DNA of 64,000 bases from Nitrospira sp. (GTDB taxonomy: Bacteria > Nitrospirota > Nitrospiria > Nitrospirales > Nitrospiraceae), in the NCBI GenBank assembly GCA_030653545.1, contig JAURZE010000022.1:124001-188000 (forward strand), read 5' to 3'. Shown in pieces: positions 3,810-21,848 of this stretch (the stretch's first letter is position 1; each line of letters opens with the position of its first letter). Under the pieces are notes generated by a model that saw only the letters and a list, made by a program, of their open reading frames with translations, was not told the origin of the DNA and did not search any database. Made by a program: the position numbers and the translations under genes.

Positions 3810-3824
3810 GGAGTCGCGATCTCA

Positions 3825-4772
3825 ATGCCGACAAAACAGACACATGTACTGGTGACCGGGGGAGCCGGCTATATCGGATCGGTGCTGTGCAAACAGCTCC
3901 TTGACCGGGGTCATCGAGTGACCGTTCTCGATACCTTCATGTATCGACAAAACAGCCTGTTAGATTGCTGTGCCTTTGACACCTTTCGTGTCGTGCGCGG
4001 AGATTGCCGGGATGAACGAATCATCACGGATCTCCTACGTGACGCGGATGTCATCATTCCGCTCGCTGCACTGGTGGGAGCGCCGTTGTGCAATCGCGAT
4101 CGAGTCGGCGCCTACACGATCAACTTTGAAGCCGTGCAGATGCTGAGCAAGCTCACCTCGCAACAGCAACAGATCATCTTCCCCGTCACGAATAGCGGCT
4201 ATGGCATCGGGCAACCGGGCGTTCCCTGCACAGAGGATTCGCCGTTACGTCCCATCAGCTTGTATGGCGAGACGAAGGTCAAGGCCGAGCGGGTCGTGCT
4301 GGATCGCGGCAACGCGATCACCCTCCGGCTGGCCACAGTCTTTGGCGCGTCTCCTCGAATGCGGATGGACCTCCTGGTCAACGATTTTGTGTGGCGCGCG
4401 GTCCATGATCGAGCCGTCGTGGTGTTCGAGGGGCATTGCAAACGGAACTACATCCATATCCGTGACGTCGTGAAGGCCTTTCTTCACTCGATGGATCAGT
4501 TCGAGCGCATGAAGAATCGCGCCTACAATGTCGGCCTGGACGACGCCAATCTTTCGAAACTGGAACTGTGCCAGGAAATTCAACGACACATTCCTCAGTT
4601 TGTCTTCTTTGAAGCCCCGATCGGAGAAGATCCCGACAAACGGGACTACATCGTCTCGAATGAACGGATGCTCTCGACCGGGTTCAAGCCGGACTGGTCG
4701 TTAGGACGAGGGATCCAGGAATTGACCAAGTGCTACACCATCGTGACCGGAACGGGATACGGCAATGTCTAG
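3825..4772 (+). CDS. NAD-dependent nucleotide-sugar epimerase/dehydratase family protein (extended SDR)
   Basis: This 315-residue protein has an AAGGAG ribosome site ending 11 bp before the ATG. It carries TGGAGYIG (NAD binding, residues 11-18) and YGETK (catalytic Tyr/Lys). The strand before the Tyr reads VTNSGYG and lacks the acidic residue found in TDEVYG or TSELYG of 4,6-dehydratases, so an epimerase or reductase is more likely than a dehydratase. It probably modifies the same GDP-sugar as the flanking genes. The exact substrate cannot be told from sequence. Confidence 0.75.
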   Translation: MPTKQTHVLVTGGAGYIGSVLCKQLLDRGHRVTVLDTFMYRQNSLLDCCAFDTFRVVRGDCRDERIITDLLRDADVIIPLAALVGAPLCNRDRVGAYTINFEAVQMLSKLTSQQQQIIFPVTNSGYGIGQPGVPCTEDSPLRPISLYGETKVKAERVVLDRGNAITLRLATVFGASPRMRMDLLVNDFVWRAVHDRAVVVFEGHCKRNYIHIRDVVKAFLHSMDQFERMKNRAYNVGLDDANLSKLELCQEIQRHIPQFVFFEAPIGEDPDKRDYIVSNERMLSTGFKPDWSLGRGIQELTKCYTIVTGTGYGNV

Positions 4773-4805
4773 CGCCGGCATCCGACGGATAGAAGGAGGG
4801 GCTCG

Positions 4806-5885
4806 ATGATCATCAGCCGCACACCCTTTCGCATCTCCTTCTTCGGAGGCGGAACCGACTACCCCGTGTGGTTTAAAGAGCACGGCGGCGCCGTCCTCGC
4901 CACCACGATCGACAAGTATTGCTATATCTCGTGCCGCCATCTTCCGCCCTTCTTTGAACATAAGACGCGGATTGCCTACTCGCGAATCGAACATGCCAAT
5001 AATAATGCCGAGATCGAGCATCCAGCCGTCCGAGGCGTCCTCCAGTATCTCAAGATGACCGAAGGTCTTGAGATTCATCATGACGGCGATCTCCCGGCCC
5101 GTACCGGACTGGGATCAAGTTCCTCGTTCACGGTGGGCCTCCTCCATGCCCTCTATGCGATGCAACATCGGATGCCGACCAAATCCGAACTGGCTCATGC
5201 GGCCATTCATGTTGAACAGAATATCGTCAAAGAAGCGGTCGGATGCCAAGATCAGGTCTTGGCTGCCCATGGCGGTCTGTGTCGGCTCACCTTCTCTCCC
5301 ACCGGAGAGATCGGATACACCCCGTTGATCATGAAGCCCGAACGGCTCAAGCAATTTCAAGATCATCTGCTGCTGTATTTCACCGGCTTCTCCCGGACAG
5401 CCTCCGAGATCGCTAAAGAGCAAATTGAAAGAACTAAGCAGAGGCGGGTGGAACTATTTGCCATGCTACAGATGGTTCAGGAAGGCATATCTCTCCTGAC
5501 CGGCGACCATGACCTATCAGAGTTCGGCGAACTTCTGCACGAAGCTTGGATGGTCAAGCGGGGACTAACCAGTAAAATCACCACTCCGCTCATCGATCAG
5601 ATTTATGACGCCGCGAGAAATGCCGGCGCACTCGGCGGGAAACTGCTCGGTGCAGGCGGGGGAGGCTTCATGCTGATCTATGCCAAACCGGAGCTGCACG
5701 CCAAGATCAATGCAGCCTTGCCAGGCCTCTTGCAAGTTCCATTTCAGTTTGAAGGCTCGGGAAGCCAGATCGTATTTTTCCAACAGGAAGTTCCTGTCCG
5801 ACGGGCCCCCCTCTGGAATGACGTGCCGACTTCTGCAGAGCTCGAAGAACATACCGTTCAGACGTGGAAGAAGGACGCCGCCTGA
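4806..5885 (+). CDS. hddA: GHMP-family sugar kinase, HddA-like D-glycero-D-manno-heptose 7-phosphate kinase
   Basis: This 359-residue protein has the GHMP kinase signatures: an N-terminal FRISFFGGGTDYP, the ATP-binding GLGSSSSFTVG near residue 100, and a C-terminal GGKLLGAGGGGF. The arrangement is that of HddA, which phosphorylates D-glycero-D-manno-heptose 7-phosphate at C1 toward GDP-heptose. The next gene is an HddC-like guanylyltransferase overlapping the stop by one base, which supports the assignment. GmhA and GmhB, needed for a full pathway, are not in the window. A GGAGG-type site precedes the ATG. A fucokinase-like substrate is the main alternative. Confidence 0.7.
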   Translation: MIISRTPFRISFFGGGTDYPVWFKEHGGAVLATTIDKYCYISCRHLPPFFEHKTRIAYSRIEHANNNAEIEHPAVRGVLQYLKMTEGLEIHHDGDLPARTGLGSSSSFTVGLLHALYAMQHRMPTKSELAHAAIHVEQNIVKEAVGCQDQVLAAHGGLCRLTFSPTGEIGYTPLIMKPERLKQFQDHLLLYFTGFSRTASEIAKEQIERTKQRRVELFAMLQMVQEGISLLTGDHDLSEFGELLHEAWMVKRGLTSKITTPLIDQIYDAARNAGALGGKLLGAGGGGFMLIYAKPELHAKINAALPGLLQVPFQFEGSGSQIVFFQQEVPVRRAPLWNDVPTSAELEEHTVQTWKKDAA

Positions 5886-6613
5886 TGACGCACGCATCGA
5901 CTGACGTCGTCATGCTCTGCGGAGGCTTGGGAACCAGACTTCAACCGGTCCTAACGGATCGCCCCAAACCCATGGCCTCAATCAATGGCCGGCCATTCCT
6001 CGATTTAGTTGTTGACCATGTCCTCTCACACGGCTTTCGCCGGATCGTGTTCTGCACCGGCCATCATGGGAATTGGATCGCGCAGCATGTCGGCCGACGA
6101 ATGGACTGTAGTGCGATCATCTCACATGAACAGACCCCGCTCGGCACAGCCGGAGCCCTCCGGGCCTGCCATTCATTGATCGCAACACCGACCATCCTCG
6201 TGTTGAACGGCGACTCCCTGTGCCGAATCGACCTCCGCGCCTTCCTGACGGCGCATCAAGACAGACAAGCCGTGGCAACGATGGCCGTGGTTCCATCGAA
6301 TGAACGGACCGATGCGGGAGGAGTCCGGATGGATGCACTGGGATGGATTCGCTCATTTCAGGAAAAACAAACGGCCTCGATTCTTAATGCTGGCATCTAC
6401 GCCATCCAGACGGAAGCGATCCACCTCATACCTGATGCTCTCCCTTGTTCACTCGAGCGAGACTTCTTCCCTCGCCTGGTGGACGGCAGGCTCTACGGTT
6501 ATGCCTGCGACGTTCCACTCTACGACATCGGAACGCCGGCCCGCCTGGCGGCGTTCGAAGCGCTTGATAAGGAAACAACCGAGCACCATTACACCACCTC
6601 ACTGTCACAATAG
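5885..6613 (+). CDS. hddC: sugar-1-phosphate nucleotidyltransferase, HddC-like
   Basis: I choose the ATG at 5885, which shares its A with the upstream TGA; a longer frame from 5864 would lie inside the kinase gene. The 242-residue product begins with the nucleotidyltransferase signature GGLGTRL, then RPKPM and the Mg-binding NGDS. The size matches HddC, which makes GDP-D-glycero-D-manno-heptose, and the kinase neighbour supports that. UTP- or CTP-using relatives cannot be excluded from sequence alone. Confidence 0.72.
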   Translation: MTHASTDVVMLCGGLGTRLQPVLTDRPKPMASINGRPFLDLVVDHVLSHGFRRIVFCTGHHGNWIAQHVGRRMDCSAIISHEQTPLGTAGALRACHSLIATPTILVLNGDSLCRIDLRAFLTAHQDRQAVATMAVVPSNERTDAGGVRMDALGWIRSFQEKQTASILNAGIYAIQTEAIHLIPDALPCSLERDFFPRLVDGRLYGYACDVPLYDIGTPARLAAFEALDKETTEHHYTTSLSQ

Positions 6614-6623
6614 GAGCTGCACT

Positions 6624-7454
6624 ATGAAACATGCGTTGACACTTGCGAAACCGGTTTGGGGCATTGGGAAACACGTTGTGATTACCGGAGGTTCCAGCGG
6701 CATCGGGTTCGAAGTCGCAAAACGCCTCAATGGAGTATGCAGAAAAATTTCCCTGATCTCGAGAAATGAGAACGGCAAACTTGCCGAAGCGCGGGAAACG
6801 CTACTCCGGCTGCAAAAGAATACACGCAATAGCATTCATACGGAGATTAATACCTGTGCCATGGACGTCCGTAACATCGAATCCGCACAGGCCTGGATCG
6901 GCGATGTGTACTCCAAAGGGAAAGACCAAATCGATATTTTCGTGAGTTCAGCAGGCGGGAGCCACGTCTATGGGACGTTGGAAGAAATGACCATGGCGGA
7001 CATCAATGCGATTTTCGACGTGAATGCCAAGGCCCCGATCATGTGGATGCGCGCATTGCTGCCCTACATGAAGCTCAACAAGATCGACCGGCGGGACACC
7101 AAGCGGGGTCACGTCCTCATGCTGTCGTCCCGTTCAGGCGAGCGCACGTTGCCCAAGCTGAGCGTGTATACCGCAGCGAAAGGGGCGGTGGAGAAGCTGG
7201 TCGAGGCCATGCAAAAGGAATATGTCCAATACCGCATGGTCTTCACCCTCATCAATCCTGGGTCCGTCAATACCGATTTCACCGCTCATTGGGATAAGGC
7301 CACGAGAAAAGCGCATAACGACGAAAGCATGTCCGTGCAGGAAGCCGCCGATTCGATTCTGCACGCCATTCATTCACATGTCGCCATCAACAAGATCTCG
7401 TACGAATCGGTCAGTCAGTGGATGCATGAGCCCGGCGTGCTCTTAGCGAGCTAA
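6624..7454 (+). CDS. short-chain dehydrogenase/reductase (classical SDR)
   Basis: The start is the ATG at 6624, after an AGGAG site in the sequence following the HddC stop; the frame stays open upstream but only inside the neighbour. The 276-residue protein has TGGSSGIG for cofactor binding, SSAGG near residue 110, a catalytic Ser in LMLSSRSG and YTAAK. The family reduces or oxidises alcohols and ketones with NAD(P). Within this operon it may act on a keto-sugar or an acyl substituent. Nothing in the sequence decides the substrate. Confidence 0.75.
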   Translation: MKHALTLAKPVWGIGKHVVITGGSSGIGFEVAKRLNGVCRKISLISRNENGKLAEARETLLRLQKNTRNSIHTEINTCAMDVRNIESAQAWIGDVYSKGKDQIDIFVSSAGGSHVYGTLEEMTMADINAIFDVNAKAPIMWMRALLPYMKLNKIDRRDTKRGHVLMLSSRSGERTLPKLSVYTAAKGAVEKLVEAMQKEYVQYRMVFTLINPGSVNTDFTAHWDKATRKAHNDESMSVQEAADSILHAIHSHVAINKISYESVSQWMHEPGVLLAS

Positions 7455-7457
7455 ACC

Positions 7458-8675
7458 ATGACCCGCACGGCTTCAACCATGACCACGGCTGCCCAGCACT
7501 CGGTGAACGATGTGCTGGGAAGCCTTCCTCGCTCCGGCATTCGCCGGCTGACAGATCAGGTCATGGGAAGCCCGGACATGGACGACGCGATCCAGCTGGG
7601 ATTCGGGCAGCCACAGGAAGCGACGGACGACCTCATCCGGGAGGCCATCATCAAAGCCACCGGAGAGCACACGCTGGGATATACGGAAAATGCGGGCATG
7701 CGGGTGCTTCGTGACGCCATCGTGGAGAAACTCGCCGTCCGCAATCACGTCAAGACGAATAGCGAAAGTATATTTGTCACGCCTGGCGCCACCTATGGCG
7801 TCGCCGTTACAATTGGATGTTTGATCAACCCCGGAGATGAGGTCCTGGTGCCTGATCCGGGTTATCCCAACTTCGCCGCCGCCGTGCGGCATCACGGCGG
7901 CATGGTGAAATTCTATCAGCTCCGTGAGGAAGCAGGTTTCCTGCCGGACCTGGACGAGCTGTCAGCGCTCATCTCTCCGGCCACCAAAGTCATGATTGTC
8001 AATTCGCCTGGGAACCCGACCGGTGCCGTTATCGACGGCGGCAGGATGGAACAACTAGTCCACCTGACCCGTGAACGCGGCCTGTGGCTGGTTTCTGACG
8101 AGGTGTATGAAACCTATGTGTACGGGTGCCGGCATATCTCTCCGCTGTCATTCACGGGGAGCGACCATGTCGTCGGCCTCTACAGCTTCTCAAAAAGCTA
8201 TAACATCACCGGCCTTCGAGTGGGCTATGTCGTCACACGACATCCGTCTTTGCGCCGCGCATTACTGAACGCGCAAGAACTCTATATTTCCTGCGCCCCC
8301 TCCATCTCTCAATTCGCCGCGCTCCAGGCATTAGCCGATGGCGGCGCCTATCCCGAGTCTATGCGGGCAGCCTATCAACAGAAACGCGATCTGGTGATGA
8401 ACATGCTCGGCCCCTATGCCGGACGCAGGCCCGAGGGCGCCTTTTATCTGCTGGTCAATATCGGTTTCACCGGCCTTGATTCCGACGACTTCGCCGATCG
8501 TCTGCTCAGGGACACCCACGTCGTCGTGGCTCCGGGAGCGACCTTCGGCCCGACCTCCGACAAGTATATCCGTATCGCGTTTACTCCACGAGTGGAGAAG
8601 CTGGAAGCAGGCCTGACACGACTCAAAGAGTTTATGAGTCAGTGGTCCCTAGCTGATAAGAAGGATTATCGATGA
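7458..8675 (+). CDS. class I/II PLP-dependent aminotransferase
   Basis: This is a 405-residue fold-type I aminotransferase of the aspartate aminotransferase superfamily. It has VTPGATYG, the NSPGNPTG motif, SDEVYE and the PLP lysine in SFSKSYNITGLRVG. Unlike DegT enzymes, this class usually works on amino acids and 2-oxo acids. Its stop overlaps the ATG of the E1 alpha gene, suggesting that an amino or keto acid is handed to the thiamine enzyme, perhaps to make an unusual acyl or amino group. An ATG at 7479 is an alternative start. Confidence 0.8.
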   Translation: MTRTASTMTTAAQHSVNDVLGSLPRSGIRRLTDQVMGSPDMDDAIQLGFGQPQEATDDLIREAIIKATGEHTLGYTENAGMRVLRDAIVEKLAVRNHVKTNSESIFVTPGATYGVAVTIGCLINPGDEVLVPDPGYPNFAAAVRHHGGMVKFYQLREEAGFLPDLDELSALISPATKVMIVNSPGNPTGAVIDGGRMEQLVHLTRERGLWLVSDEVYETYVYGCRHISPLSFTGSDHVVGLYSFSKSYNITGLRVGYVVTRHPSLRRALLNAQELYISCAPSISQFAALQALADGGAYPESMRAAYQQKRDLVMNMLGPYAGRRPEGAFYLLVNIGFTGLDSDDFADRLLRDTHVVVAPGATFGPTSDKYIRIAFTPRVEKLEAGLTRLKEFMSQWSLADKKDYR

Positions 8676-9577
8676 ATTGCGAGCTGGAACAGAGAACACC
8701 CACGTTCGGCCTTATCTCCGATGTCGCCAGGACGTTTACAAAAGACTATGCCCTGAAACTCTTCACTCAAACCTGTTTTAACCGTTTCTTCGAGTTCGAA
8801 GTAAAAAAGGCCTACGACCGGGGATTGATGAAGCTGCCGATCTATCTGTCGGTCGGACAGGAACATATCCCGGCGGCCATCGCATCGGTCTTTTCCGACT
8901 GTTTGATCTTTGCCCAGCACCGGGCCCACTCGGTGTATCTGTCGTTCGGCGGCGATCCGCTCCAACTCATCGACGAGCTCCTGGGACGCCGGACAGGGTG
9001 CGCCCGCGGCATGGGAGGCTCTGCCTCCATACAGTCCCCGCAGATCGGCATGTTCGGGCACAGCGGACTCATGGGCGACCAAGTTCCCATCGCGGTGGGA
9101 GCGGCTTTAGGCGCGAACAAACCGGTGCTGACGGTCATGGGTGATGCCTCTGCTGAAGAGGATTACATCTACGGAGCCTTGGGGTTTGCCGTCACCAAGA
9201 AACTCCCGGTTCTCTTCGTCTGCGAGGACAATGATCTGTCGATTTTGACCAGGACGCCTGTCCGTCGTTCGTGGACCCTCTGCGGTCTCGCTCAAGGACT
9301 CGGACTTCCCGCAGTCGACATCACTGACGATCCTTGGTTGATTGCGCATCATGTAAGACAGTTCAGCCTGCAATTACCGGCTGTGATCAATATTAGAACC
9401 TGTCGCGGTTTATGGCACGCAGGCTCCGGTTGTGACGGCCCGCCGGAGTGGGATCGGTATGCCTTGATCAAGGACACCATGAAGACTCTTGGCTTGGAGC
9501 GCGATGCCCTCGCCATCGAATCCGACATTGAAAGGACCGTGCAGAACCTATGGGCAGAACAGTTGCGGAAGTCATAA
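8672..9577 (+). CDS. thiamine-diphosphate E1 alpha subunit (2-oxoacid dehydrogenase type)
   Basis: This 301-residue protein matches the alpha subunit of pyruvate/acetoin/branched-chain dehydrogenase E1: SVGQEHIPAA near residue 61, HRAHS, RGMGGS and the ThDP-Mg motif GDASAEED followed by VCEDN. It is somewhat shorter than typical E1 alpha (about 330-360). It begins inside the aminotransferase stop and its end overlaps the beta gene by 28 bp. No lipoyl E2 or E3 gene lies nearby, so it may form a stand-alone ThDP lyase/ligase or borrow E2 from elsewhere. Confidence 0.82.
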   Translation: MNCELEQRTPTFGLISDVARTFTKDYALKLFTQTCFNRFFEFEVKKAYDRGLMKLPIYLSVGQEHIPAAIASVFSDCLIFAQHRAHSVYLSFGGDPLQLIDELLGRRTGCARGMGGSASIQSPQIGMFGHSGLMGDQVPIAVGAALGANKPVLTVMGDASAEEDYIYGALGFAVTKKLPVLFVCEDNDLSILTRTPVRRSWTLCGLAQGLGLPAVDITDDPWLIAHHVRQFSLQLPAVINIRTCRGLWHAGSGCDGPPEWDRYALIKDTMKTLGLERDALAIESDIERTVQNLWAEQLRKS

Positions 9578-10494
9578 GAGACACCACCCGGAATCATCTG
9601 ACACACAACCGCGGTCTCTTTTTGGGACAGTGTGTGACGGCAGTCGGATGGATCGGCGGCACGGTACCGGACATGTCCGAGGCAGAGGGCCTCGTAGAAC
9701 TCTCGCTCGCCGATGTGACCAATGCCGGCATCGCCGTCGGAGCGGCGCTCACCGGCCGGCGGCCGATCTATACAGTGCGCTATCAAGGTTTCATGTGGTA
9801 CAACGCCGCGCCCATTGTGAACTATGCGGCGAAATCGAAGGATGTCTGGGGCGTACCCTGCCCGGTGTTTCTCCGGGCCATCGCCATGGAAGGGAACGGT
9901 ATCGGTCCGGTCGCTTCTGCGTCACAGCACGGTCTCATCATGCGGATGCCCGGAATGCCGGTCTGTGCGCCCATGTCGCCCAACGAGTGGACGGAGGCCT
10001 GGAATTGGTTCATGCACCATGACGATCCTCTCTATGTCAGCGAGCATCGGCGGAGTTTTACCATCGACTATGAATTCGAGAACCGCATCGAGCCCGAGGC
10101 CGACATCACTTTGTTCCCGATTTCGGCCGCCCGACTCAATGCCGTCGAAGCAGCCAACACATTGCGGCAGGAAGGCATCGTCTGCAACATCCAGCACCTC
10201 GTGTGGCTTAAACCGTTCGCGGTGACAGACGAGATGCGGCACAGCCTAACCCGAACCGCACTCGGGCTTGTCATCGATTCAGACTTTGAGATCGGCGGCC
10301 CGTCACGGTCGATTGCCTATGATCTCATGCATCAATCCGGCGCGCCGGTGTTCGCCCTTGGCTTGGAAGACCGATCTGCAGGCGTCGCCGAATCTCTGGA
10401 CAATCCGACCCCCACGCCGGAACGGATCGTGCGCGTCGTTCGGGAACTGGTTCGAAGTAGACGAACCTTACCGGCGGGAGTCACCGGTGAGTAG
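9550..10494 (+). CDS. thiamine-diphosphate E1 beta subunit (transketolase-like)
   Basis: This 314-residue partner of the preceding E1 alpha has the transketolase pyrimidine-binding domain, with SEAEGLVELSLADVTNAGIAVGAAL in two stretches supplying the conserved acidic residue region, and a C-terminal transketolase domain ending in an extended VVRELVR helix. The 28-bp overlap with the alpha gene indicates fixed stoichiometry. Alpha and beta together would decarboxylate a 2-oxo acid; the acceptor is unknown here. Confidence 0.8.
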   Translation: MGRTVAEVIRDTTRNHLTHNRGLFLGQCVTAVGWIGGTVPDMSEAEGLVELSLADVTNAGIAVGAALTGRRPIYTVRYQGFMWYNAAPIVNYAAKSKDVWGVPCPVFLRAIAMEGNGIGPVASASQHGLIMRMPGMPVCAPMSPNEWTEAWNWFMHHDDPLYVSEHRRSFTIDYEFENRIEPEADITLFPISAARLNAVEAANTLRQEGIVCNIQHLVWLKPFAVTDEMRHSLTRTALGLVIDSDFEIGGPSRSIAYDLMHQSGAPVFALGLEDRSAGVAESLDNPTPTPERIVRVVRELVRSRRTLPAGVTGE

Positions 10495-10539
10495 TGCCGG
10501 TCAGAGAAATGCCTCGTTGACAGACAGGGGAGGGGATCA

Positions 10540-12096
10540 ATGATCCAGATCGGACCAGTAACGTCAGCCCACAGCTCACAGGAGCGTGCCGTGACACTTC
10601 CCGGACGGCTTGATCTTCTGTTCATCAATCCGAACTCGCGTGCCCGTGTCTATCAAAGTCTCGGGTCTGATCTGGCTGCGGTCGAACCGCCGGTTTGGAT
10701 CGGTTTCATCGCAACCTTCATCCGTGACCGTGGCTATTCCGTCAGGATCCTGGATGCCGAAGCGGAAGGTATCGGACCGGAAGGAGTCGCAGAACGGGTA
10801 CGCCAACTGAACCCGAGACTGACCGCCGTCATTGTCTATGGACAACAGCCGTCTGCATCGACCCAAAACATGACGGCCGCCGGAGAGGTCTGCAAGGCCA
10901 TCAAACGTCTTGCGCCGGACCAGCCGCTTCTCATGGGCGGCCTGCATCCGTCAGCCCTGCCGGAACGGACCATGCGGGAAGAGTCGGTCGACTTTGTCTG
11001 TCAGGGTGAAGGACCCTACACGCTGCTCGGCCTCCTGCGGCAGCCTGAGTGGATCGCTCCGAGCGACTACAGCCAGGTCAGCGGACTCTGGTACCGGAAG
11101 CAGGGCGTCATCTGCTCAACGCCGCAAGCCCCGGTGATCGAAGACCTGGACAAAGACCTGCGCGCGGTCGCGTGGGATCTGCTCCCGATGGACAAATACC
11201 GCGCCCACAATTGGCACTGTTTCGGGCGTATCGACGATCGCAAGCCCTATGCGTCGATGTATACAAGCCTCGGATGTCCCTTTAAATGTTCCTTCTGTTG
11301 CATCAATACGCCATTCGGAAAACCGATGATTCGCTACCGCAGTCCGGAAAGTGTGATCCGGGAAATCGATGAGCTCGTCACGAAATACGGCGTGCGCAAC
11401 ATCAAGATGGCCGACGAAATGTTCATCCTGAATGAGCGGCAGGTCCTCGGTATCTGCGATCTCATCATCGAGCGCGGCTATGACCTGAACATTTGGGCGT
11501 ACGCGCGGATCGATACAGTGAAAGACAGCATGCTAAAGAAGCTGAAGCAGGCTGGTGTCAACTGGCTGGGCATCGGTATCGAATCCGCCAGCACATACGT
11601 CCGGGACGGAGTAGACAAGAGCTTCGGGAAGAAGGACATCAAAGAGATCTTCGATAAGATTCGCGCAGCGGATATCAATATCGGGGCGAATTTTATTTTC
11701 GGCCTTCCTGACGACACGCTGGCCACCATGCAGGAGACGCTGGATCTGGCCATTGAACTCTGCCCCGATTGGGCGAACTTCTATTCGGCGATGGCCTATC
11801 CAGGTTCAAAACTATACGACCTCGCGGTCACAAACGGCACCGCCTTGCCCGACACATGGGTGGGGTATTCGCAACACGCGTACGAGGCGCTGCCTTTACC
11901 GACCGACCACGTCTCGGCCTCCGCAGTCCTCCAATTCCGCGACCAGGCGTTCCACACATTTTTTGAGCACCCGCGGTATCTCGAACATGTGGAGCGGCGC
12001 TTCGGGACAGAGACCGTCGCTCATATTCAATCGATGACGACCCATCGTTTGAAACGCAAATTTGCAGAATCGCCGCTTCAACCAGAGGCAGCCTGA
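10540..12096 (+). CDS. B12-binding domain radical SAM protein
   Basis: The 518-residue protein has an N-terminal cobalamin-binding Rossmann-like domain (about residues 20-165) with GGLHPSALP, then a radical SAM core whose [4Fe-4S] motif is CPFKCSFC near residue 247. ADEMFI and GIGIESAS are typical radical SAM strands. The class (BchE/methyltransferase-like) often methylates unreactive carbons or rearranges carbon skeletons. In this operon a C-methylated or otherwise remodelled sugar is plausible. Substrate unknown. Confidence 0.82.
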   Translation: MIQIGPVTSAHSSQERAVTLPGRLDLLFINPNSRARVYQSLGSDLAAVEPPVWIGFIATFIRDRGYSVRILDAEAEGIGPEGVAERVRQLNPRLTAVIVYGQQPSASTQNMTAAGEVCKAIKRLAPDQPLLMGGLHPSALPERTMREESVDFVCQGEGPYTLLGLLRQPEWIAPSDYSQVSGLWYRKQGVICSTPQAPVIEDLDKDLRAVAWDLLPMDKYRAHNWHCFGRIDDRKPYASMYTSLGCPFKCSFCCINTPFGKPMIRYRSPESVIREIDELVTKYGVRNIKMADEMFILNERQVLGICDLIIERGYDLNIWAYARIDTVKDSMLKKLKQAGVNWLGIGIESASTYVRDGVDKSFGKKDIKEIFDKIRAADINIGANFIFGLPDDTLATMQETLDLAIELCPDWANFYSAMAYPGSKLYDLAVTNGTALPDTWVGYSQHAYEALPLPTDHVSASAVLQFRDQAFHTFFEHPRYLEHVERRFGTETVAHIQSMTTHRLKRKFAESPLQPEAA

Positions 12097-12151
12097 AGAG
12101 GGGATCAGTCGGACTCAGAGCCTATCGCCTGAGGTACGGAACAATACGAGA

Positions 12152-13207
12152 ATGGGATTAGACGTCAATATCATTACGGGCAACCTCGGGCAAGCCATTC
12201 ACACTGAAGACTTGCTGGAGTATGTACGGGAAGGGCTCACCAGCGCCGGACTGAAGGTCGGGTACTCGCAAACCGATTATTTAACCCATGGCATCAATAT
12301 CCTCGTAGAACATCCCTTCGGAGCCGTCTATGACCAGCTGTACGTGATGCGAAAGCTATTGCCTCACTCGAAACTGTTCATGATTGTGACTGAATTGCTC
12401 ACGCCGTCTGGCTTTAACTCGTCGAATTCGAAGCAAACGGGCCGGATAAATCCCGAAGATCATTACGATGATGCTAAATACTGGACCAATAGAACAAGGG
12501 AATTCATGCGGTTCGTGCCGGTCGTCGACGGCTTCATTATGGTCGGGCTGCACAAGGTTCGGGGAATACTCCCTGCGGGGTACGAGGAAGGAGTCACGAG
12601 CTATTTTCAATTGGGCAAGCCCGTGCATCTCGTACCTCTCTGCCATCCGCCGGCACAATCGCGCCCGACAGCTTCGGTCCGGCGGCGTGAAAAAGACATC
12701 GATATTCTGTTTACCGGAACATTGACTCCCTATCGCATCAAGGTGCTCGACGAACTCCGGTCGAGAAACTTTACGGTCGTGGCACTCGAAGCGCATATAC
12801 CGGCTTATCTCAGAAACGACTATATCGACCGATGCAAACTGTCCCTCGGCCTCAAATTGTCCAAAGAGACGAAGATCCTGTCCACGATGCGGGCCTATTA
12901 TCATCTGGTGCATCGCATCCCGCATGTATTTGAACGCACCTCGATACGGTCTCCCTTAGATCCATTCATCAATGTGGTCGACAGCGGGCAGCCGTTTATT
13001 GCGGTGTGCGCGGAACTCCTGTCCGGCATGCGGGAGTTTCCGGAACAACGCTTTCAGGAGTTTCAACATTCACAAGTGTTCAATTACCAGAACACCTTTG
13101 CGGAGCTAGGATCGCTGCTGACCGGAAAGTCGAGGCAATACGTTTCCGAGGAGAACGGACATGAAGACATTACCCTTGAACGTCATACCGCAGCATACAG
13201 ACGCTGA
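12152..13207 (+). CDS. glycosyltransferase-like protein of unknown specificity
   Basis: The frame opens at 12062 inside the preceding gene, but the ATG at 12152 gives a clean start for a 351-residue product. It is not firmly recognised. The central segment DIDILFTGTLTPYR followed by a helix and VVALE resembles the second Rossmann domain of GT-B enzymes such as the CgeB group, and a PFINVVDSGQPF stretch follows. There is no signal peptide or membrane segment. It overlaps the next radical SAM gene by 47 bp, so the two are probably coupled. Confidence 0.55.
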   Translation: MGLDVNIITGNLGQAIHTEDLLEYVREGLTSAGLKVGYSQTDYLTHGINILVEHPFGAVYDQLYVMRKLLPHSKLFMIVTELLTPSGFNSSNSKQTGRINPEDHYDDAKYWTNRTREFMRFVPVVDGFIMVGLHKVRGILPAGYEEGVTSYFQLGKPVHLVPLCHPPAQSRPTASVRRREKDIDILFTGTLTPYRIKVLDELRSRNFTVVALEAHIPAYLRNDYIDRCKLSLGLKLSKETKILSTMRAYYHLVHRIPHVFERTSIRSPLDPFINVVDSGQPFIAVCAELLSGMREFPEQRFQEFQHSQVFNYQNTFAELGSLLTGKSRQYVSEENGHEDITLERHTAAYRR

Positions 13208-15056
13208 AGACTCTGGCCGTTGCGGAGAGTCCCTCCCTGCGACGAAGACAATCATTTCCGAACGGCTGCAGACCCTACTTCCAAGGGGATGCCACCGCGT
13301 GCTCTTGATTACGCCGCCGGAATCCCCCGAGAAAGACTTCAATCGCGACTTGGTCTTGAGTAAACGATATCCCTGTTTCCCCCCCTATGGGCCCGGCATT
13401 CTTGCGCGTAACCTTGAGCAGCGCGGCTATCGAGCAGCCCTCCTTGATTTGCATTTCCAAGTCTTGAAACACGCACATGAGAATCCGTCGGACTTTAGAT
13501 TTCAGATATGGAAGGAGCGCTTGATAGAAAAGATCGAAGAGTTTCAGCCGGATCTTATAGGGATCAGCGTCATGTTCACCATTTCTCGGCCCTCGCTCGC
13601 CGATGTGGCGGCTTTTCTCAAAACGAACTTCCCTTCGCTTCCAATTATTGCCGGCGGAGTATGCATCTCCAATGACGTGGAGTCGATCCTGCGAACCGTT
13701 CCCCAGATCGACATCGGAAGTTTTTATGAAGGTGATCGCAGCTTCCCGGATTTACTGGACGTGATCAACGGGAAACAGCCGGTCTCTGAAATAAGACAGG
13801 TGGCGATGCTCAAAGGGGAGCAATTGGTCTCAACCAAAGAACGGGCCACGCCGTCCGACCAAGAGATGGATATTCAGCCGGAATATTATGATTTACCGAT
13901 TGGGGACTATACGAACTATGGTTCCATGGGGGCCTACAATTTCATGCGGGGTGAACGGAAAGCCTCCACCATCATCAGCAACAGAGGGTGCCGGGCAATG
14001 TGCTCTTTTTGTGCCGTCAGGAATTTCAACGACATCAGTGTCCGAGGCCGGGCCGTCTCCAGCGTGGTCGATGAAGTAGAACGCCTGTACTCCTCCTACG
14101 GTGTCACCCATTTTATGTGGCTCGACGATGATCTGCTCTACAACGGCAAACGCGCGATTGCGCTTTTCAATGAGATTACCCGGCGTAATCTCCACATTAC
14201 CTGGGACGCCAGCAATGGATTGATCGCGGCTGCCATCACGCCTGAGATCATGCAGGCGGCATCGGAATCCGGCTGTATCGGATTCAATCTCGGACTGGAG
14301 TCGGGGAATGACCGGATTCTAAAATCCATTCACAAGCCGGGCACGACAAAGAGCTACCGGCAGGCCCGCGTCATTCTGGATCAATATCCTCATGTCTTTG
14401 TCAAAGGCTTCATGATTATCGGGTTCCCGCATGAAACCATCGCGCAGATACGGGATACGGTCAATCTTGGCTGCGAGCTGCAGTTCGGATGGTACCCGCT
14501 GCAATTGCTGACCACGTTGCCCGGCACCGAAATTACGCTGAGCATGATCGAGCAGGGGCTGATACGTCCGCCCACTGATGCCAGTTTCAAAGGCCTGGCC
14601 GCCGGGTCCAAGAGCAAAGGGGGCGGCACGCTCCGTCAACGTGAACGGGCGGAGAAGCATGAGGCGCTCGCTTTTGTGGATCTGCTGCAATCACTCCCGG
14701 CCGACCATGTCCCGACGGCCGCCGAGTTGGATGACCTCTGGTTCGTAGCCGACTATAAAATGAACTATGAAAAGCTGCTTCACATTGACGAACCGGTCAA
14801 GCTGCGAAATATCAGGGTGATGTTGCAGCAAATCACCGACGAATACACCGTCGACAACGCGATGGGCAACCTGTTTCTCGCCGTCATTGCATCAAAGCTG
14901 CATGAATTCGGCGAGAGCCAGCGGCGTCTCGCATTGGCGAAACGCTTTCAGGAGGAATCCGCCTACTGGACAACGCGCTTTACCGTGTTGGGCATGAGTG
15001 AGATCGCCGGTCGTGTTCGAGCCGCGAACGCTCGAGCGATGCCTCTGGCGGCCTAA
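13161..15056 (+). CDS. B12-binding domain radical SAM protein with C-terminal extension
   Basis: This 631-residue enzyme starts after a GAGGAGA site located inside the previous gene. A cobalamin-binding domain spans about residues 45-210 (FPPYGPGILA, ISVMFT, IIAGGVCIS), then a radical SAM core with CRAMCSFC near residue 281, LWLDDD-like acidic strand and GLESGNDRIL. The last ~130 residues form a helical extension. It is distinct from the first radical SAM gene of the operon and shares little sequence outside the core motifs. It closes the biosynthetic part of the island. Confidence 0.82.
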   Translation: MKTLPLNVIPQHTDAEDSGRCGESLPATKTIISERLQTLLPRGCHRVLLITPPESPEKDFNRDLVLSKRYPCFPPYGPGILARNLEQRGYRAALLDLHFQVLKHAHENPSDFRFQIWKERLIEKIEEFQPDLIGISVMFTISRPSLADVAAFLKTNFPSLPIIAGGVCISNDVESILRTVPQIDIGSFYEGDRSFPDLLDVINGKQPVSEIRQVAMLKGEQLVSTKERATPSDQEMDIQPEYYDLPIGDYTNYGSMGAYNFMRGERKASTIISNRGCRAMCSFCAVRNFNDISVRGRAVSSVVDEVERLYSSYGVTHFMWLDDDLLYNGKRAIALFNEITRRNLHITWDASNGLIAAAITPEIMQAASESGCIGFNLGLESGNDRILKSIHKPGTTKSYRQARVILDQYPHVFVKGFMIIGFPHETIAQIRDTVNLGCELQFGWYPLQLLTTLPGTEITLSMIEQGLIRPPTDASFKGLAAGSKSKGGGTLRQRERAEKHEALAFVDLLQSLPADHVPTAAELDDLWFVADYKMNYEKLLHIDEPVKLRNIRVMLQQITDEYTVDNAMGNLFLAVIASKLHEFGESQRRLALAKRFQEESAYWTTRFTVLGMSEIAGRVRAANARAMPLAA

Positions 15057-15308: not shown

Positions 15309-18300
15309 ATGTCGATGAAAGCGCTGCTTCTCCAACTCGAGTTTCCAACATGGAAGACGGCCAGACCTTGGACCTACGGCGCGAGCTTTGCCGTAGCGGA
15401 GGGACTCGCTGCCAATGGAGTCACCTGTCTGACGGTCCCGGTTCTTCCTGATACGACGGCCGCCTCTCCCGATTCCTGGTTATCCCACGCCCGCCGCATA
15501 CTGGCCGGACAGCGCTTCGACCAGGTCTGGATTTGGCTCGTGCATGCGTCCCTCGACACACGAATTCTCGAATGGGCGGCGGAGCTGGCCCCTGTCCGCA
15601 TCGGGTTTTTCATGGAGTCGCTACGGTATGAGGAAGAGGACTATCGTTGGGCTCCCGGATTGCGCAGTCGGCATGTCGCCTTTCACCGCCAGCTCGAGCA
15701 CCTGACTCACGCACTGATGGTCGATGAACGCGACGTGGCCGAGCTCACGGCACTCGGAACAAAGCCAGCGCTCTGGTGCCCAGGATTAGTGCCTCGCCGT
15801 TTCATCGCGGATCCCTCACGTGCTCCTCGTTACAATCGGGCCGTCTTTCATGGCAATGTGTATGGTGATCGCGCCAAGTGGATCGAGCATCCGCTGCTGC
15901 GCGACCGCATGACCTTCGCTCAGGCCCCGGCACAATACACTTCCAATCAACAGAAGTTCGATGAGCTCCAAAAGATTGCAAGCGAGCGGGTGCGCCATCT
16001 TCCAATGGTAACCGCTGTAGACCTGGAGCGCTATGTTCGGGCCTTGCACACCGTGCGTGAGGCAGAGTTTCGTGACTGGCTGTTTGGACTCGCCGACTGG
16101 GCCGGTATCGTCAACCTTCCCGGTCTGACTCGTTGTTTCGGTGGCCGTGTCTATGAAGCCATGGCGGCGGGACGCCCGGTGATCTCCTGGCGCATTCCCG
16201 ACCGGCCCAGAGTCAACGCCTTGTTTGAAGACAATCGGGAGATCCTATTGTTCTCTCCTGATGATCCCGCGGAGCTGGCTCATCAGATCGATCGCATCCT
16301 GCAAGATACACCATTCGCCCAAGCGATCGGCATCCAGGGACAGCGCAAACTGCTCGCGCATCATACGGCGGAACGTCGGATGAAGGACATCCTCCAGTGG
16401 CTTGAAAGCGGGAAAGAACCTGAGTACGGGAACCTTCCCACCCTTGCTGAACAACCGACGGGCGTCAAATCCGTGACGCCCGTCAATTCCTCGTCAGCCC
16501 CACGTCCTCAGGGGCCACACCCCATCTCCACCACTGTGTTTCTATTGACAGTCGGTGATCCGACCTTCCAAGCCTGTCAAGAGTCGGTCGAACAGCAAAC
16601 GGGAGCGACATTCAAGATCGAGACGATACAAGACGTCTGTCCCTTCAGCGCCGCCGCCCAGGAAATGATTGTGCGCTGTACGACTCCATACTTCATTCAG
16701 GTTGATGAAGACATGGTACTGCATCCCGATGCCGTCGGTCGAATGGAGCAGGCGATGACGCAGGCGCCGGCTGAAGTCGGCATGATTTGCTTCCACCTCT
16801 ATGACGAGGACCGGGAATGCCCGATCCAAGGCATCAAAATCTATCGGACGGAGCTGATGAAACGGCTGGCGTTCCGCGACTTGAAGGCCAGTGAAATGAA
16901 TCTGCTCGACCAGATGGGCGAGCAGGGGATTCGCTGGATTCTCCATCCCGATGCCTTGGGGCGCCACGGAACACGCTATACGCCAGAGACCATCTATCGG
17001 CGCTATAAAACGATGTACGAAAAGGACATTCGGCAGTGGAATCTTTTGACTGCGGATATCCACCGCAAAGCACACAAGTTTCGCGAGACCGGCGATATTC
17101 TCCAACTATTTGCTCTCCTCGGAGCTGCGCACGGAATCATCGATGCCCCGATGGCGCCAGACCGAGAGAAGGACGCCCGCGCGTACCATTTCAAAGAGCT
17201 GGAGATCTTTGGACGGCTTCTCAAGACTACTCCTCCGGTAAGCCAGAGCTACGATTTCTCTCGTGCAGCAGTACCTCTGAAGAATCCACCAATCCCCCTT
17301 GATCAGGTGCAGTGGAAGAGTGCGCCGGTTCCACCGCATACCGACGCTTCCCGTTCGGCATCGGAACAACCGACCCCTAGCCTTGCGCCAACACCCAAAC
17401 ACCCCACACCGCAGCCTGGTCACATCCTTATCGTGACTCCTTATTTTTGGCCCTCTGTCGGTGGCGTCGAAACGGTGGCGGAGGATCTGGGAGCGGGTTT
17501 GCTTACCGCCGGATTCCATGTAGAGGTCGCCTGCTATGAACAGCCCGACCGAAGGATGGACAGTCATCGGGGCATCAGCATTACCCAGCTGGCCCCTCAT
17601 GACCAAATGACGAACGGTATTCCTACCGCAGCCAACCAGGTGAAGCACCTGGTTGAGTCGAACCGCTACGACGCCTGTATCCTACTGGGCTCACCAATGA
17701 ATGCCTTGTTCTATGCCATCCTAGAGTTACAGGACCTGAAGAATCGACGCATTCTATTCCAGCCCACGATCAACCGGGAAGGGTACGCCTTCATTCAGCA
17801 AAGACCGATTGTCCAGTCACTCCTGGAGCGCCTGGCCAAACAGACGACTGCGATCATTGTGCTTGGTCATGACACATTCGATGCTCGCTTCTGTGGAGAG
17901 ACGGGGATTCCTGCCACCATTATCCCGAACGGCACGCCCACACTGAATCCCGCATTTGACTTTAGGCTGAAGTACCAGATTGACGAACAGCAATTCCTCA
18001 TCGTGCATGTCGCCAATCTCTATCGAATCAAGAACCATCTGAGCCTGCTCAAGACCCTGGATACGTTGCCCACCGGTGCCACGCTCGTCATGATCGGCCA
18101 TCCCACTCACGAAACCGCATACGTTGCGGAAGTGCAACGCGCGCTCTCGACTCGCCCTGACGTACTTTATATTCCTGGATTGCATCGAGATGGCGTGGCG
18201 GCAGCAATACAGGCTGCCAATCTTGTGGTCTTATCTTCTGAGGCGGAAGTCTCTCCGTTATGCCTGCTAGAAGCTATGAGCTTACAACGCCCTTGGTTAG

Positions 18301-21300
18301 CCACCCCTGGCTGCGGGACTGCCAATGAACAGGCCGGGGGGTTGATACTCCCGCTGGATGAATTCAGGTCGGCGATTGAATGCCTGATGGCACATCCGGA
18401 CTATTCGTCACAGCTGGCTCAGTCAGGTTACGACCATTGGAGGACGTGTTATCGATGGGAATCCTTCCTCGCAGCCTGGGTGGAATTAATTCGAGACGGG
18501 CGACTCACGCACACGTGCGATACCCCCGAACCTATCGCCCGCATGCGTGACGATCTTCGCGCTCGCTACCGAACACTGCGCACGGCAGCGACAGGATCCC
18601 TTCACAGCCAGAGTCCGTCAGGAAGCAAGCCGCGACTGACGAGACCTGTTTCACCTGACGTGAATCGATCAGTTCACACACCAGTCACAACATCACACGA
18701 GGGCTCAATGGACCAAGATCAGTTTTACATCAACATGTTTGTGAAGAGTCCTGGTTGGTCAACATCCGAACCGAATGATGATGAAGCCGCACGCTGGTCA
18801 AAAATCGCCGGATTCCTCGAACATATCCTCCGGAGGGTACAGGCCAATAATCCTGATGCCATGCTCCGCATCCTTGAAGTCGGAAGCGGCCGCGGATGGT
18901 TGAGCAATTTGGCCTCCCAATATGGGACAGTGGAAGGCGTTGAACCGGTCGCAGGCGTCGTAGCCCACGCCCGAAAGATGTTTCCGCACATTCGTTTCGA
19001 AGCCGGCACGGCAGAAGCCGTGCTGAGCCGCCCGGACTTCACCCCCTATGATGTGGTGCTGTGCTCAGAAGTCATTGAGCACGTACCGGACCCTGAGAAA
19101 CCGGCTTTTCTGGACGAGTTGAAGCAGCTTCTGACTTCCGACGGATACCTCATTCTGACCACGCCACGAGGAGAAATGTGGGAACAGTGGCAACGCATTG
19201 CACCCCCCTGCCAGCCAATCGAAGATTGGATCACTGAAGAACGGCTCACTCAGCATATGACGGCTCAGGGCTTCACGCCCTTGGGTCTCGAACGGATTTA
19301 CGTTGAGATACCGACTCTCCGATACATTCCCGCGCCCACTCCGCATAACCTCAAGACCATGAATTTGCTTCCCATTTATCAGGTGTGGATAGCACAGAGA
19401 ACGATCAGTTCACCGGGTCAGGCGCGTCCAATGATCAATAAGCCGCCGATGGTGAGCGTCATCATTCCGACACACAATCGTCCTGATCGTCTTCGCACGG
19501 CGATAACGAGCGTACTCAACCAAGACTATCACGACTTTCAGATCGTGGTGGTCAACGACGGGACGACTCCGGTCGAAGACATTGTGTCCGGGTTGAACCG
19601 CGATGGTCGCATCCTCCTTGTGACACATGATCGCAACCGAGGCCTCGCGGCCTCCCGCAACACCGGGTTGCGACAGGCGTCAGGGAAATACGTGTGCTAT
19701 TTGGATGACGACGACCGGTTCCTTCCGCACCATCTGCGGACATTGGTGACTCATCTTGAATCCTCCGGCGACAAGGTCGCCTACACCGATGCATGGCGGG
19801 TGCATGAATCTCTGATCGACAACACGGCGACCGAAATCGGACGAGATCAGCCCTATGCGGCTGATTTCAACCCGCATCAATTATTGATCAACAATTATCT
19901 TCCGGTCTTGTGCCTCATGCATGAGCGGGCCGTCCTTGATGAAGTCGGCGCGTTCGACGAAAGCCTCTTCGTCCATGAAGATTGGGATCTCTGGATCCGG
20001 ATGGCGACTCGATATCCGTTCAAGCACCTTGCCGTCACGACGGCCGAGTTCACGTGGCGTACGGACGGCTCGTCGATGACGAGTCACAGGAAAGATATAT
20101 TCCTGAGAACGATGGAACTCATTTATCGTAAGTACGCGCCCTATGCCGCCAAGTATGCAGGCGTGCGGGAAAATCAGCAGCAGAATCTCGCCAATCTCCG
20201 AAATAAGCAACTTCGCAAATCATTTGTCTGTTCCATCATCATTCCGGTCTGGAACAAGCTCGAGCTCACCCGTCAATGTCTCGTCGCACTCGGTCCAGCC
20301 ACTGAAGATGTGTCATTCGAACTCATCGTCGTTGATAACCATTCGACCGATGGCACGCCTGAATTTCTCGCATCGCTGGGTGGCGATGTCCGGATCATCA
20401 CGAACGACGAGAACCTGGGATTTGCCAAGGCCTGCAACCAAGGAGCTGCCGTTGCAACGGGCGAGTATCTCGTGTTTTTGAACAACGATACGATTCCACT
20501 CAAAGGTTGGCTGAGCGCGTTGGTCGATGAAGTCCGAACACAGCCCGACGTCACCGTCGTCGGCAGTAAACTGCTGTATCAGGACGGCACAATACAACAT
20601 GCCGGGGTCGCGATCGACCGCAATAACCTCACTCCCTACCATATATATAATGGATTCGCAGCCGATCATCCGGCCGTCAATAAACGGCGCGAACTGAACG
20701 CCGTGACAGCCGCCTGTCTCCTGATTCGCCGCACGGCGTTCGCAGATCTCGGTGGGTTTGATGAAGGCTACCTCAACGGTTTTGAAGATGTCGATCTCTG
20801 CCTGAGAGTACGGGAGAAACAGGGCCGCATTATCTACCAGCCTCACAGCGTGTTGTATCACCTGGAAAGTCAAACGCCAGGCCGTAAACAACACGACCAG
20901 TCGAATGCGAATCGCTTGCACCAGCGTTGGGGGCATTGCTGGTGGCTGGTGGATGACGATTGCATCTACGCGGGAGACGGCTACAAGGCCGTTGAGGAGG
21001 ATCAGAATGGAAGACCGTCGTATAAGCTCCATCTGATCGACGGCACAGAAGAGCGACAGGCGTGGGACCTCGTCGCGTCCATGCAACAGGCGGCACATCA
21101 TCAGGACTTGGCAACAGTCGAGTCTGTCTTGCGGCGGCATGCGGAGTGGCCGGCCGACGCGTCCATTCTGCAATGGGCCGCGTCCGTTGCGACGGCCATG
21201 AAACTCCCGGGCATTGCGGAGGAGTATCGACGCCGGGTTGCCAGCCTGAATGATCCGGCACTTCGCGAGCTGGAGGCCATTCGCGCCGCACTCACCGCCG

Positions 21301-21842
21301 GTCAATTGTCGATGGCGTCGAGCCGCGTCGACGCGTTACTGAAGCAATATCCCACCCATGCGGAGGCGCTCCTTCTTCGAGCCATCCTCCATATGCAGCG
21401 GGAACAATACCGCGAAGCTGAAATTGCCTTTACCACGGCGCTCAATCAGGGTGCGAACCGGAAGAAATGCCTCATGGGAATCGGCATGGCGTCGATGGGC
21501 CGCGCCTATCCGCAGGGAGCCTGGCAAACCTTTCTACGGGTTCTTGCGGAGAACCCCGATGACGCCGATGTGATTCATTGGCTACTGCGTGCGGGGACCG
21601 CGCAAAATCGCTGGCGGGAGCTCAGCGTCCAGCTACACAACTTCCTCGCGCGGAACCCCAGCGATCTGTCGGTCCGCTTCGCCTACGCCGGCGTCTTATT
21701 GCGTGACGATCAGGTGGACGCGGCGCGTCAGGAATACAATCAGTTGCGCGCGTTGGCTCCCACGTATGAAGGATTGGTTGAACTCGGGCAGGCCATCGCC
21801 GCCAAAGAGAGCGTGTTGGCGCTGAACGTGTCCAACGCCTAG
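15309..21842 (+). CDS. giant multidomain glycosyltransferase/methyltransferase/TPR protein (2177 aa)
   Basis: One uninterrupted frame encodes, in order: a CgeB-like GT-B domain (about 1-370, with CFGGRVYEAMAAGRPV); a GT-A-like domain (about 405-640, VDEDMV near 465); a GT4 domain (about 700-1070, PYFWPSVGGVE and the E-x7-E motif near 978); a SAM methyltransferase (about 1134-1370, LEVGSGRGW near 1189); a GT2 domain (about 1380-1620, DDDD near 1465); a second GT2 domain (about 1637-1880, NNDT near 1725); and TPR-like helices (about 1980-2177). Linkers between the early domains are Pro/Ser/Thr-rich. The start is ATG 15309 or 15315, with only a weak ribosome site. The 252-bp gap before it shows no clear site. 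A role in building a methylated flagellin glycan is inferred from the flagellin gene 5.4 kb downstream. Confidence 0.85.
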   Translation: MSMKALLLQLEFPTWKTARPWTYGASFAVAEGLAANGVTCLTVPVLPDTTAASPDSWLSHARRILAGQRFDQVWIWLVHASLDTRILEWAAELAPVRIGFFMESLRYEEEDYRWAPGLRSRHVAFHRQLEHLTHALMVDERDVAELTALGTKPALWCPGLVPRRFIADPSRAPRYNRAVFHGNVYGDRAKWIEHPLLRDRMTFAQAPAQYTSNQQKFDELQKIASERVRHLPMVTAVDLERYVRALHTVREAEFRDWLFGLADWAGIVNLPGLTRCFGGRVYEAMAAGRPVISWRIPDRPRVNALFEDNREILLFSPDDPAELAHQIDRILQDTPFAQAIGIQGQRKLLAHHTAERRMKDILQWLESGKEPEYGNLPTLAEQPTGVKSVTPVNSSSAPRPQGPHPISTTVFLLTVGDPTFQACQESVEQQTGATFKIETIQDVCPFSAAAQEMIVRCTTPYFIQVDEDMVLHPDAVGRMEQAMTQAPAEVGMICFHLYDEDRECPIQGIKIYRTELMKRLAFRDLKASEMNLLDQMGEQGIRWILHPDALGRHGTRYTPETIYRRYKTMYEKDIRQWNLLTADIHRKAHKFRETGDILQLFALLGAAHGIIDAPMAPDREKDARAYHFKELEIFGRLLKTTPPVSQSYDFSRAAVPLKNPPIPLDQVQWKSAPVPPHTDASRSASEQPTPSLAPTPKHPTPQPGHILIVTPYFWPSVGGVETVAEDLGAGLLTAGFHVEVACYEQPDRRMDSHRGISITQLAPHDQMTNGIPTAANQVKHLVESNRYDACILLGSPMNALFYAILELQDLKNRRILFQPTINREGYAFIQQRPIVQSLLERLAKQTTAIIVLGHDTFDARFCGETGIPATIIPNGTPTLNPAFDFRLKYQIDEQQFLIVHVANLYRIKNHLSLLKTLDTLPTGATLVMIGHPTHETAYVAEVQRALSTRPDVLYIPGLHRDGVAAAIQAANLVVLSSEAEVSPLCLLEAMSLQRPWLATPGCGTANEQAGGLILPLDEFRSAIECLMAHPDYSSQLAQSGYDHWRTCYRWESFLAAWVELIRDGRLTHTCDTPEPIARMRDDLRARYRTLRTAATGSLHSQSPSGSKPRLTRPVSPDVNRSVHTPVTTSHEGSMDQDQFYINMFVKSPGWSTSEPNDDEAARWSKIAGFLEHILRRVQANNPDAMLRILEVGSGRGWLSNLASQYGTVEGVEPVAGVVAHARKMFPHIRFEAGTAEAVLSRPDFTPYDVVLCSEVIEHVPDPEKPAFLDELKQLLTSDGYLILTTPRGEMWEQWQRIAPPCQPIEDWITEERLTQHMTAQGFTPLGLERIYVEIPTLRYIPAPTPHNLKTMNLLPIYQVWIAQRTISSPGQARPMINKPPMVSVIIPTHNRPDRLRTAITSVLNQDYHDFQIVVVNDGTTPVEDIVSGLNRDGRILLVTHDRNRGLAASRNTGLRQASGKYVCYLDDDDRFLPHHLRTLVTHLESSGDKVAYTDAWRVHESLIDNTATEIGRDQPYAADFNPHQLLINNYLPVLCLMHERAVLDEVGAFDESLFVHEDWDLWIRMATRYPFKHLAVTTAEFTWRTDGSSMTSHRKDIFLRTMELIYRKYAPYAAKYAGVRENQQQNLANLRNKQLRKSFVCSIIIPVWNKLELTRQCLVALGPATEDVSFELIVVDNHSTDGTPEFLASLGGDVRIITNDENLGFAKACNQGAAVATGEYLVFLNNDTIPLKGWLSALVDEVRTQPDVTVVGSKLLYQDGTIQHAGVAIDRNNLTPYHIYNGFAADHPAVNKRRELNAVTAACLLIRRTAFADLGGFDEGYLNGFEDVDLCLRVREKQGRIIYQPHSVLYHLESQTPGRKQHDQSNANRLHQRWGHCWWLVDDDCIYAGDGYKAVEEDQNGRPSYKLHLIDGTEERQAWDLVASMQQAAHHQDLATVESVLRRHAEWPADASILQWAASVATAMKLPGIAEEYRRRVASLNDPALRELEAIRAALTAGQLSMASSRVDALLKQYPTHAEALLLRAILHMQREQYREAEIAFTTALNQGANRKKCLMGIGMASMGRAYPQGAWQTFLRVLAENPDDADVIHWLLRAGTAQNRWRELSVQLHNFLARNPSDLSVRFAYAGVLLRDDQVDAARQEYNQLRALAPTYEGLVELGQAIAAKESVLALNVSNA

Positions 21843-21848
21843 GAGCGC

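Follow-up and report, generated by a model that had tools for sequence, protein, structure and literature searches.

A 64,000-nucleotide stretch of a Nitrospira sp. genome (GenBank contig JAURZE010000022.1, positions 124,001 to 188,000; here, the window) carries a giant glycosyltransferase (GT) gene upstream of flagellin genes, a candidate for the central enzyme of flagellin glycosylation. Its frame, at 15309-21842 on the forward strand, is open over 2177 codons, and the gene is single copy in its genome. The true start is probably the Met at 15315 (MKALLLQLEF, in the context AGGA-N5-ATG), which is common to relatives, rather than 15309; a sigma-70 promoter scan found no site, an uninformative negative. 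A sequence-only reading of this DNA had described one polypeptide with five GT modules, a methyltransferase, and tetratricopeptide repeats (TPRs), and the open frame, Pfam matches, and AlphaFold2 models bear that description out. The modules, M1 to M7, are as follows.

15315..16415, forward strand: M1, CgeB-like GT-B glycosyltransferase module, residues 3-369 (Pfam PF13524, Glyco_trans_1_2, at 276-363)
16521..17273, forward strand: M2, GT-A glycosyltransferase module, residues 405-655, with an invariant DED (24-ortholog alignment; AlphaFold2 model; Foldseek)
17421..18518, forward strand: M3, GT4-type GT-B glycosyltransferase, residues 705-1070, EX7E conserved (Pfam PF13439/PF13692/PF00534)
18708..19424, forward strand: M4, class I S-adenosylmethionine (SAM)-dependent methyltransferase, residues 1134-1372 (Pfam PF13489/PF13649/PF08241)
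19434..20204, forward strand: M5, GT2 glycosyltransferase, residues 1376-1632, with invariant DDDD and HEDWDLWIR (Pfam, alignment, model)
20214..20948, forward strand: M6, GT2 glycosyltransferase, residues 1636-1880, with NNDT and FEDVDLC (Pfam, alignment, model)
21045..21839, forward strand: M7, TPR solenoid, residues about 1913-2177, proposed flagellin dock (Pfam TPR families; AlphaFold2 model)

The Pfam spans were 717-1028 for Glyco_transf_4/Glycos_transf_1, 1166-1323 for Methyltransf_23/25/11, 1383-1493 and about 1641-1874 for the two Glycos_transf_2 domains, and about 1990-2160 for the TPRs. PF00535 scored 203.6 bits over the whole protein in two stretches (cut-off, 23.3; E = 2.6e-60), and PF08241 was found in the same chain (E = 2.4e-10). 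M2 (405-655) had no Pfam match and no convincing PDB sequence match, and its structure was therefore predicted. The AlphaFold2 model, of moderate confidence (predicted local distance difference test score [pLDDT], 76), matched many GT-A glycosyltransferases in Foldseek, WrtF, SpsA, and RmlT among them (E values down to 9e-9, TM-scores near 0.5). It predicts a GT-A fold with a Rossmann-like core and a DXD-type triad (the invariant DED), in agreement with the GT-A-like assignment made earlier. Structure prediction, proposed at that time as a check, was also run on the core (residues 1376-2177; pLDDT, 88.8) and recovered two GT-A domains followed, from about residue 1913, by an all-helical TPR solenoid with pLDDT mostly about 90.

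A loss of catalytic residues from most modules, which had been a concern, was not seen; every module retained its catalytic motifs. After alignment, orthologs retained DED (M2), EX7E (M3), LEVGSGRGW (motif I, LEVGSGRGWL in the window protein) and SEVIEH (M4), DDDD and HEDWD (M5), and NNDT and FEDVD (M6); among 40 core sequences, DDDD was invariant and NND nearly so. The nearest PDB entries to M4 were UbiG-type O-methyltransferases. M6 resembled polypeptide GalNAc-transferases at the profile level, and this hints weakly that initiation of the glycan could be its task.

Separate genes joined by a sequencing or assembly error could in principle mimic such a protein. The order M1-M2-M3-methyltransferase-GT2-GT2-TPR was found in one frame in at least 18 other independent Nitrospira assemblies, from different studies and at 52 to 80% identity, and such an error is therefore excluded, with practically no chance left to it. 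The relatives of the contig were themselves Nitrospira.

Linkage of the locus to flagellin

Among 79 Nitrospira genomes, 64 had both the GT2-GT2-TPR core and flagellin, 10 had neither, 3 had flagellin only, and 2 had the core only. The core was thus present in 64/67 genomes with flagellin and in 2/12 genomes without detected flagellin (Fisher P = 1.2e-8, uncorrected for species kinship and with fragmented genomes that may conceal either the core or flagellin). Where the two lay on one contig, they were on the same strand in 56/56 genomes, with flagellin 5178 to 6037 bp downstream. Chance colocation was ruled out by the co-occurrence together with the fixed spacing and strand. This genomic evidence that flagellin would be the acceptor is strong, short of biochemistry. 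The sequence-only reading had named no target; the context indicates flagellin. The neighboring features of the window are as follows.

1660..6613, forward strand: nucleotide-sugar genes common to many loci (NCBIfam best matches, all below curated cut-offs)
6630..15056, forward strand: type-specific cassette encoding a short-chain dehydrogenase/reductase (SDR), a pyridoxal phosphate aminotransferase, thiamine pyrophosphate (TPP) E1-like alpha and beta proteins, B12 radical SAM protein 1, a small CgeB-like protein, and B12 radical SAM protein 2
21849-23024, forward strand: GT9-like gene (NCBIfam heptosyltransferase models)
about 23032-24849, forward strand: CgeB-like gene (conserved gene order)
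24846-26522, forward strand: GT9-like gene (NCBIfam heptosyltransferase models)
27288-28115, forward strand: flagellin gene fliC
28565-29962, forward strand: fliD
29992-30387, forward strand: fliS

The order core-GT9-CgeB-GT9-orf172-fliC-fliD-fliS recurs in loci long enough to show it. In the complete loci, two GT9-like genes and a further CgeB-like gene lie directly downstream, and the giant protein is therefore not the sole glycosyltransferase of the system; the earlier idea of a whole capped oligosaccharide made in one complex, although plausible, is overstated given these further enzymes encoded beside it. The products of 1660..6613 resemble a DegT-type aminotransferase, a GDP-fucose synthase, an epimerase, a heptose-kinase-like GHMP kinase, and a sugar-1-phosphate guanylyltransferase. 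Because no upstream product passed a curated NCBIfam cut-off, the sugars are left unnamed.

Variable architecture and exchange of M1

The GT2-GT2-TPR core was constant among Nitrospira loci, and the modules ahead of it varied, giving about eight architectures plus split versions (MT, methyltransferase).

M1-M2-M3-MT-core: the window and 19 loci, of which three are truncated where their contigs end
M1-MT-core: seen among Nitrospira loci
MT24-M1-MT-core: for example, L046
CgeB-MT24-M1-MT-core: L055
M1-GT2-MT-core: N. defluvii L058 and L056
Another GT2-MT-core group: L057 and L059-L061
CgeB-GT2-core, with no methyltransferase: N. moscoviensis L075 and L069
MT-core alone (1051 residues): L070, beginning at the residue matching Met 1134
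Split M1-M2-M3 / MT-core, as adjacent genes: L065 and L066
Split M1-M2-M3-MT / core: L078
Split M1-MT / core: L072
Separate M1-, M2-, and M3-bearing genes, then a protein of about 3500 residues with the GT2b-TPR unit three times: L080

A search of other genomes thus found both the same domain order and split versions of it. False splits are possible in metagenome-assembled genomes (MAGs), but L065, L066, L078, and L080 represent different genomes and have diverged considerably from the window. The two adjacent genes of L065 and L066 and the stand-alone half in L070 agree with the earlier suggestion that formerly separate genes had fused, and an origin of the giant gene by joining of adjacent genes at the residue-1134 boundary is well supported by these comparisons. 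In L080 (Nitrospirales MAG OFTM76), the protein at 12554-22963 has 3470 residues and carries a further methyltransferase beside the triple GT2b-TPR unit; it lies about 5.5 kb before flagellin. The stand-alone CgeB-like gene of the window (12062-13207) has a counterpart that is fused at the N terminus of the giant protein in L055 (7955-14317).

Trees of the separate modules differed. The M1 tree placed the window with L020, L024, and L030 (support 100/99). In both the M2-M3 and the core trees, the window grouped with L020-L023, L025, and L030, and L024 grouped with L033 and L044 (M2-M3) or with L044 (core). Sliding identity between L020 and L025 was mostly 88 to 94% in the core versus 39 to 57% in M1, and the break between exchanged and constant parts fell near residue 400. 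The three loci sharing the M1 type of the window (L020, L024, and L030; M1 identity, 84%) also carry the SDR-aminotransferase-TPP-TPP-radical SAM cassette at 82 to 98% identity, and no other locus has it. L021, L023, and L025, with M6 identity of at least 90%, have a different M1 and lack the cassette (the upstream flank of L023 is short). The M1 type therefore matches the cassette, and M1 appears to have been swapped between lineages together with the upstream sugar-biosynthesis genes.

The two B12-binding radical SAM proteins of the cassette (window 10540-12096 and 13161-15056) often have relatives elsewhere, at low identity. The G017 bin (L009/L020), to which L020 of the M1 comparison belongs, has two different core proteins: a contig end truncates one, and the other is next to flagellin. 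A second copy and bin contamination are both possible.

A possible internal start at Met 1134

That the methyltransferase begins at an internal Met after a linker, as the sequence-only reading had noted, gains weight from L070, in which the same residue is the start codon of a stand-alone gene; the split genes of L065 and L066 also begin close to it. Two features mark the site.

18699..18703, forward strand: Shine-Dalgarno (SD)-like GAGGG inside the open reading frame (ORF), 4 to 5 bases before the internal ATG
18708..18710, forward strand: internal ATG (Met 1134), candidate second start, the start codon in stand-alone L070

If the site is used, a second product of about 1044 residues (methyltransferase-GT2-GT2-TPR) may be made from Met 1134. 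The alternative is that the site is a fossil: fusions were recent and repeated, the old ribosome-binding site has yet to decay, and only the full-length protein is made. We give this close to an even chance; it opposes only a dual product and leaves the flagellin role untouched. Adjacent split genes in deeper relatives favor it, as do at least 10 fused loci whose site is weak or absent (L046, L048, L049, L050, L051, L053, L062, L072, L077, and L078). Several observations are not expected of a decaying relic. GAGG-N3-8-ATG was present in 22/22 fused ORFs keeping the boundary Met, a set itself located by motif, compared with 1.7% of the 1139 internal Met codons elsewhere. Across 19 full-length proteins, Met 1134 had the strongest mean SD energy of the 48 Met columns compared. 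The second strongest belonged to a replacement ATG that lies 27 codons upstream, behind a purine-rich SD, in the clade that has lost Met 1134. The residues encoded at the SD vary by clade (EGS, EDR, and GGx) while the nucleotide motif is retained. In the NGGxM clade, the SD Gly codon was GGA in 10/10 sequences, whereas 0/17 other conserved Gly codons had an invariant third base. Synonymous codon shuffling of 14 representatives, taken from loci with a readable motif region, gave 5.9 expected motifs versus 14 seen (nominal P = 3e-6, with kinship uncorrected). The window site was also the least structured among the 61-nucleotide stretches sampled in the ORF; other loci were less clear (median rank, 14%).

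These patterns suggest that a ribosome-binding site is kept inside most of the fused genes under what appears to be selection, and dual initiation at Met 1134 is likely enough to test. More tentatively, and with somewhat less than an even chance of being right, the locus could be a dual-output, module-swapping assembly line, in which the full synthase and a separate protein from the internal start (18699-18710) are both made and lineages exchange M1 together with its donor genes. If so, the ratio of the two products could set the share of flagellins with a short versus a complete glycan.

Proposed function and relation to known systems

Taken with the flagellin linkage, the module content makes it quite probable that the Nitrospira flagellin-glycosylation locus has this protein as its central enzyme: a cytoplasmic modular synthase that would assemble a methylated oligosaccharide on flagellin ahead of its export. 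By analogy with FlmG, the C-terminal TPR solenoid probably docks and holds flagellin, and the gene for the chaperone FliS is close by. M5-M6, the fixed GT2 pair, would attach and extend the first sugars; the variable N-terminal GTs (M1, and M2-M3 where present) would add lineage-specific sugars, M1 using the nucleotide sugar supplied by the directly upstream genes that travel with it; M4 would O-methylate one residue of the chain and, with the variable N-terminal modules, probably finish the glycan; and the separate downstream GT9-like and CgeB-like enzymes would add more. Less surely, the retained Met 1134 start would also yield the methyltransferase-GT2-GT2-TPR half as a protein of its own.

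Several points weigh against this proposal. Three flagellin-bearing genomes (G094, G068, and G067) lack the core. A search of a paper library found no glycan, proteomic, or genetic evidence of flagellin glycosylation in Nitrospira. Across all loci, M1 identity did not correlate significantly with mean upstream identity (rank correlation, rho = 0.22, P = 0.19), and we therefore claim only the discrete type match, a three-versus-rest pattern. In G094, a 99% complete Nitrospira genome with no core protein, the flagellin frame is exceptionally long (652 codons), as if this different flagellin had escaped the system.

Synthesis or modification of a cell surface polysaccharide or lipopolysaccharide (LPS), by an enzyme merely encoded in a flagellar cluster, is unlikely. 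The neighboring GT9-like genes do score best against LPS heptosyltransferases, and the M5-M6 pair resembles the bifunctional polysaccharide polymerases K4CP (2z86/2z87) and PmHS2, or heparosan synthase 2 (8vh7), which have tandem GT-A domains in one chain and were the best whole-core Foldseek matches. However, the query TM-scores were low (0.24), reflecting two separate GT-A domains in an arrangement not superposable on the Nitrospira core, and those enzymes polymerize capsule disaccharides and have no TPR, methyltransferase, or flagellin link. The core, moreover, tracks flagellin presence and keeps a constant spacing from fliC in every testable genome, and no export or polymerization gene was recognized among the surrounding genes examined, a subset of those present.

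The closest precedents for flagellin glycosylation match the protein in part. FlmG of Caulobacter crescentus is a flagellin O-glycosyltransferase of 596 residues whose N-terminal TPRs bind flagellins and whose single GT-B domain transfers pseudaminic acid (PMC7591256). Like FlmG, the Nitrospira protein would be a soluble flagellin glycosyltransferase and joins TPRs to glycosyltransferase domains in the same chain; unlike FlmG, it has C-terminal TPRs beside two GT-A (GT2) domains, along with a methyltransferase and as many as three additional GTs. The GT2 protein of the Clostridioides difficile type B flagellin locus (CDR20291_0242) fuses PF00535 to PF08241 and has been suggested to transfer rhamnoses and methylate them, which may keep the chain from growing further (PMC5207246). 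This is a precedent for the chain-ending methylation that the sequence-only reading had raised as a possibility. The Nitrospira locus shares the GT2-methyltransferase fusion, but no TPR, GT4, or CgeB-like module is described for the C. difficile protein, and the initiating GlcNAc transferase there, GT1, is a separate protein. The best 25 matches of the Nitrospira protein listed from Pfam and from NCBIfam included no Maf domain. We therefore assign it to none of the three groups (FlmG, Maf, and C. difficile GT2) and regard it as a probable enzyme of flagellin glycosylation, unusually large and modular; a search of a paper library found no paper on comparable giant enzymes.

Homologs of the M5-M6 pair (about 40 to 55% identity) occur in multi-GT proteins of 1200 to 3900 residues, some with TPRs, in anammox and other bacteria (Brocadia, Kuenenia, Ignavibacteria, and Syntrophobacterales; L081-L092), but with other partner modules and without constant close linkage to flagellin. 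In Brocadia loci L083, L086, and L088, relatives of the GT2 pair lie in 1500-residue multi-GT proteins about 7 to 23 kb from a flagellin-like gene.

Work on flagellin glycosylation has dealt mainly with pathogens and usually with sets of smaller, individual enzymes. Here, in a locus found in nearly all flagellated Nitrospira sampled, a single genus displays the pathway in fused, split, and reshuffled forms, a natural series for asking which module sets which sugar. The natural exchanges let the link between one GT module and its sugar-donor genes be read, and the conserved candidate for an internal translation start offers a testable case inside a fused gene. The analysis predicts that the main nitrite-oxidizing bacteria would carry methylated, lineage-specific flagellar glycans.

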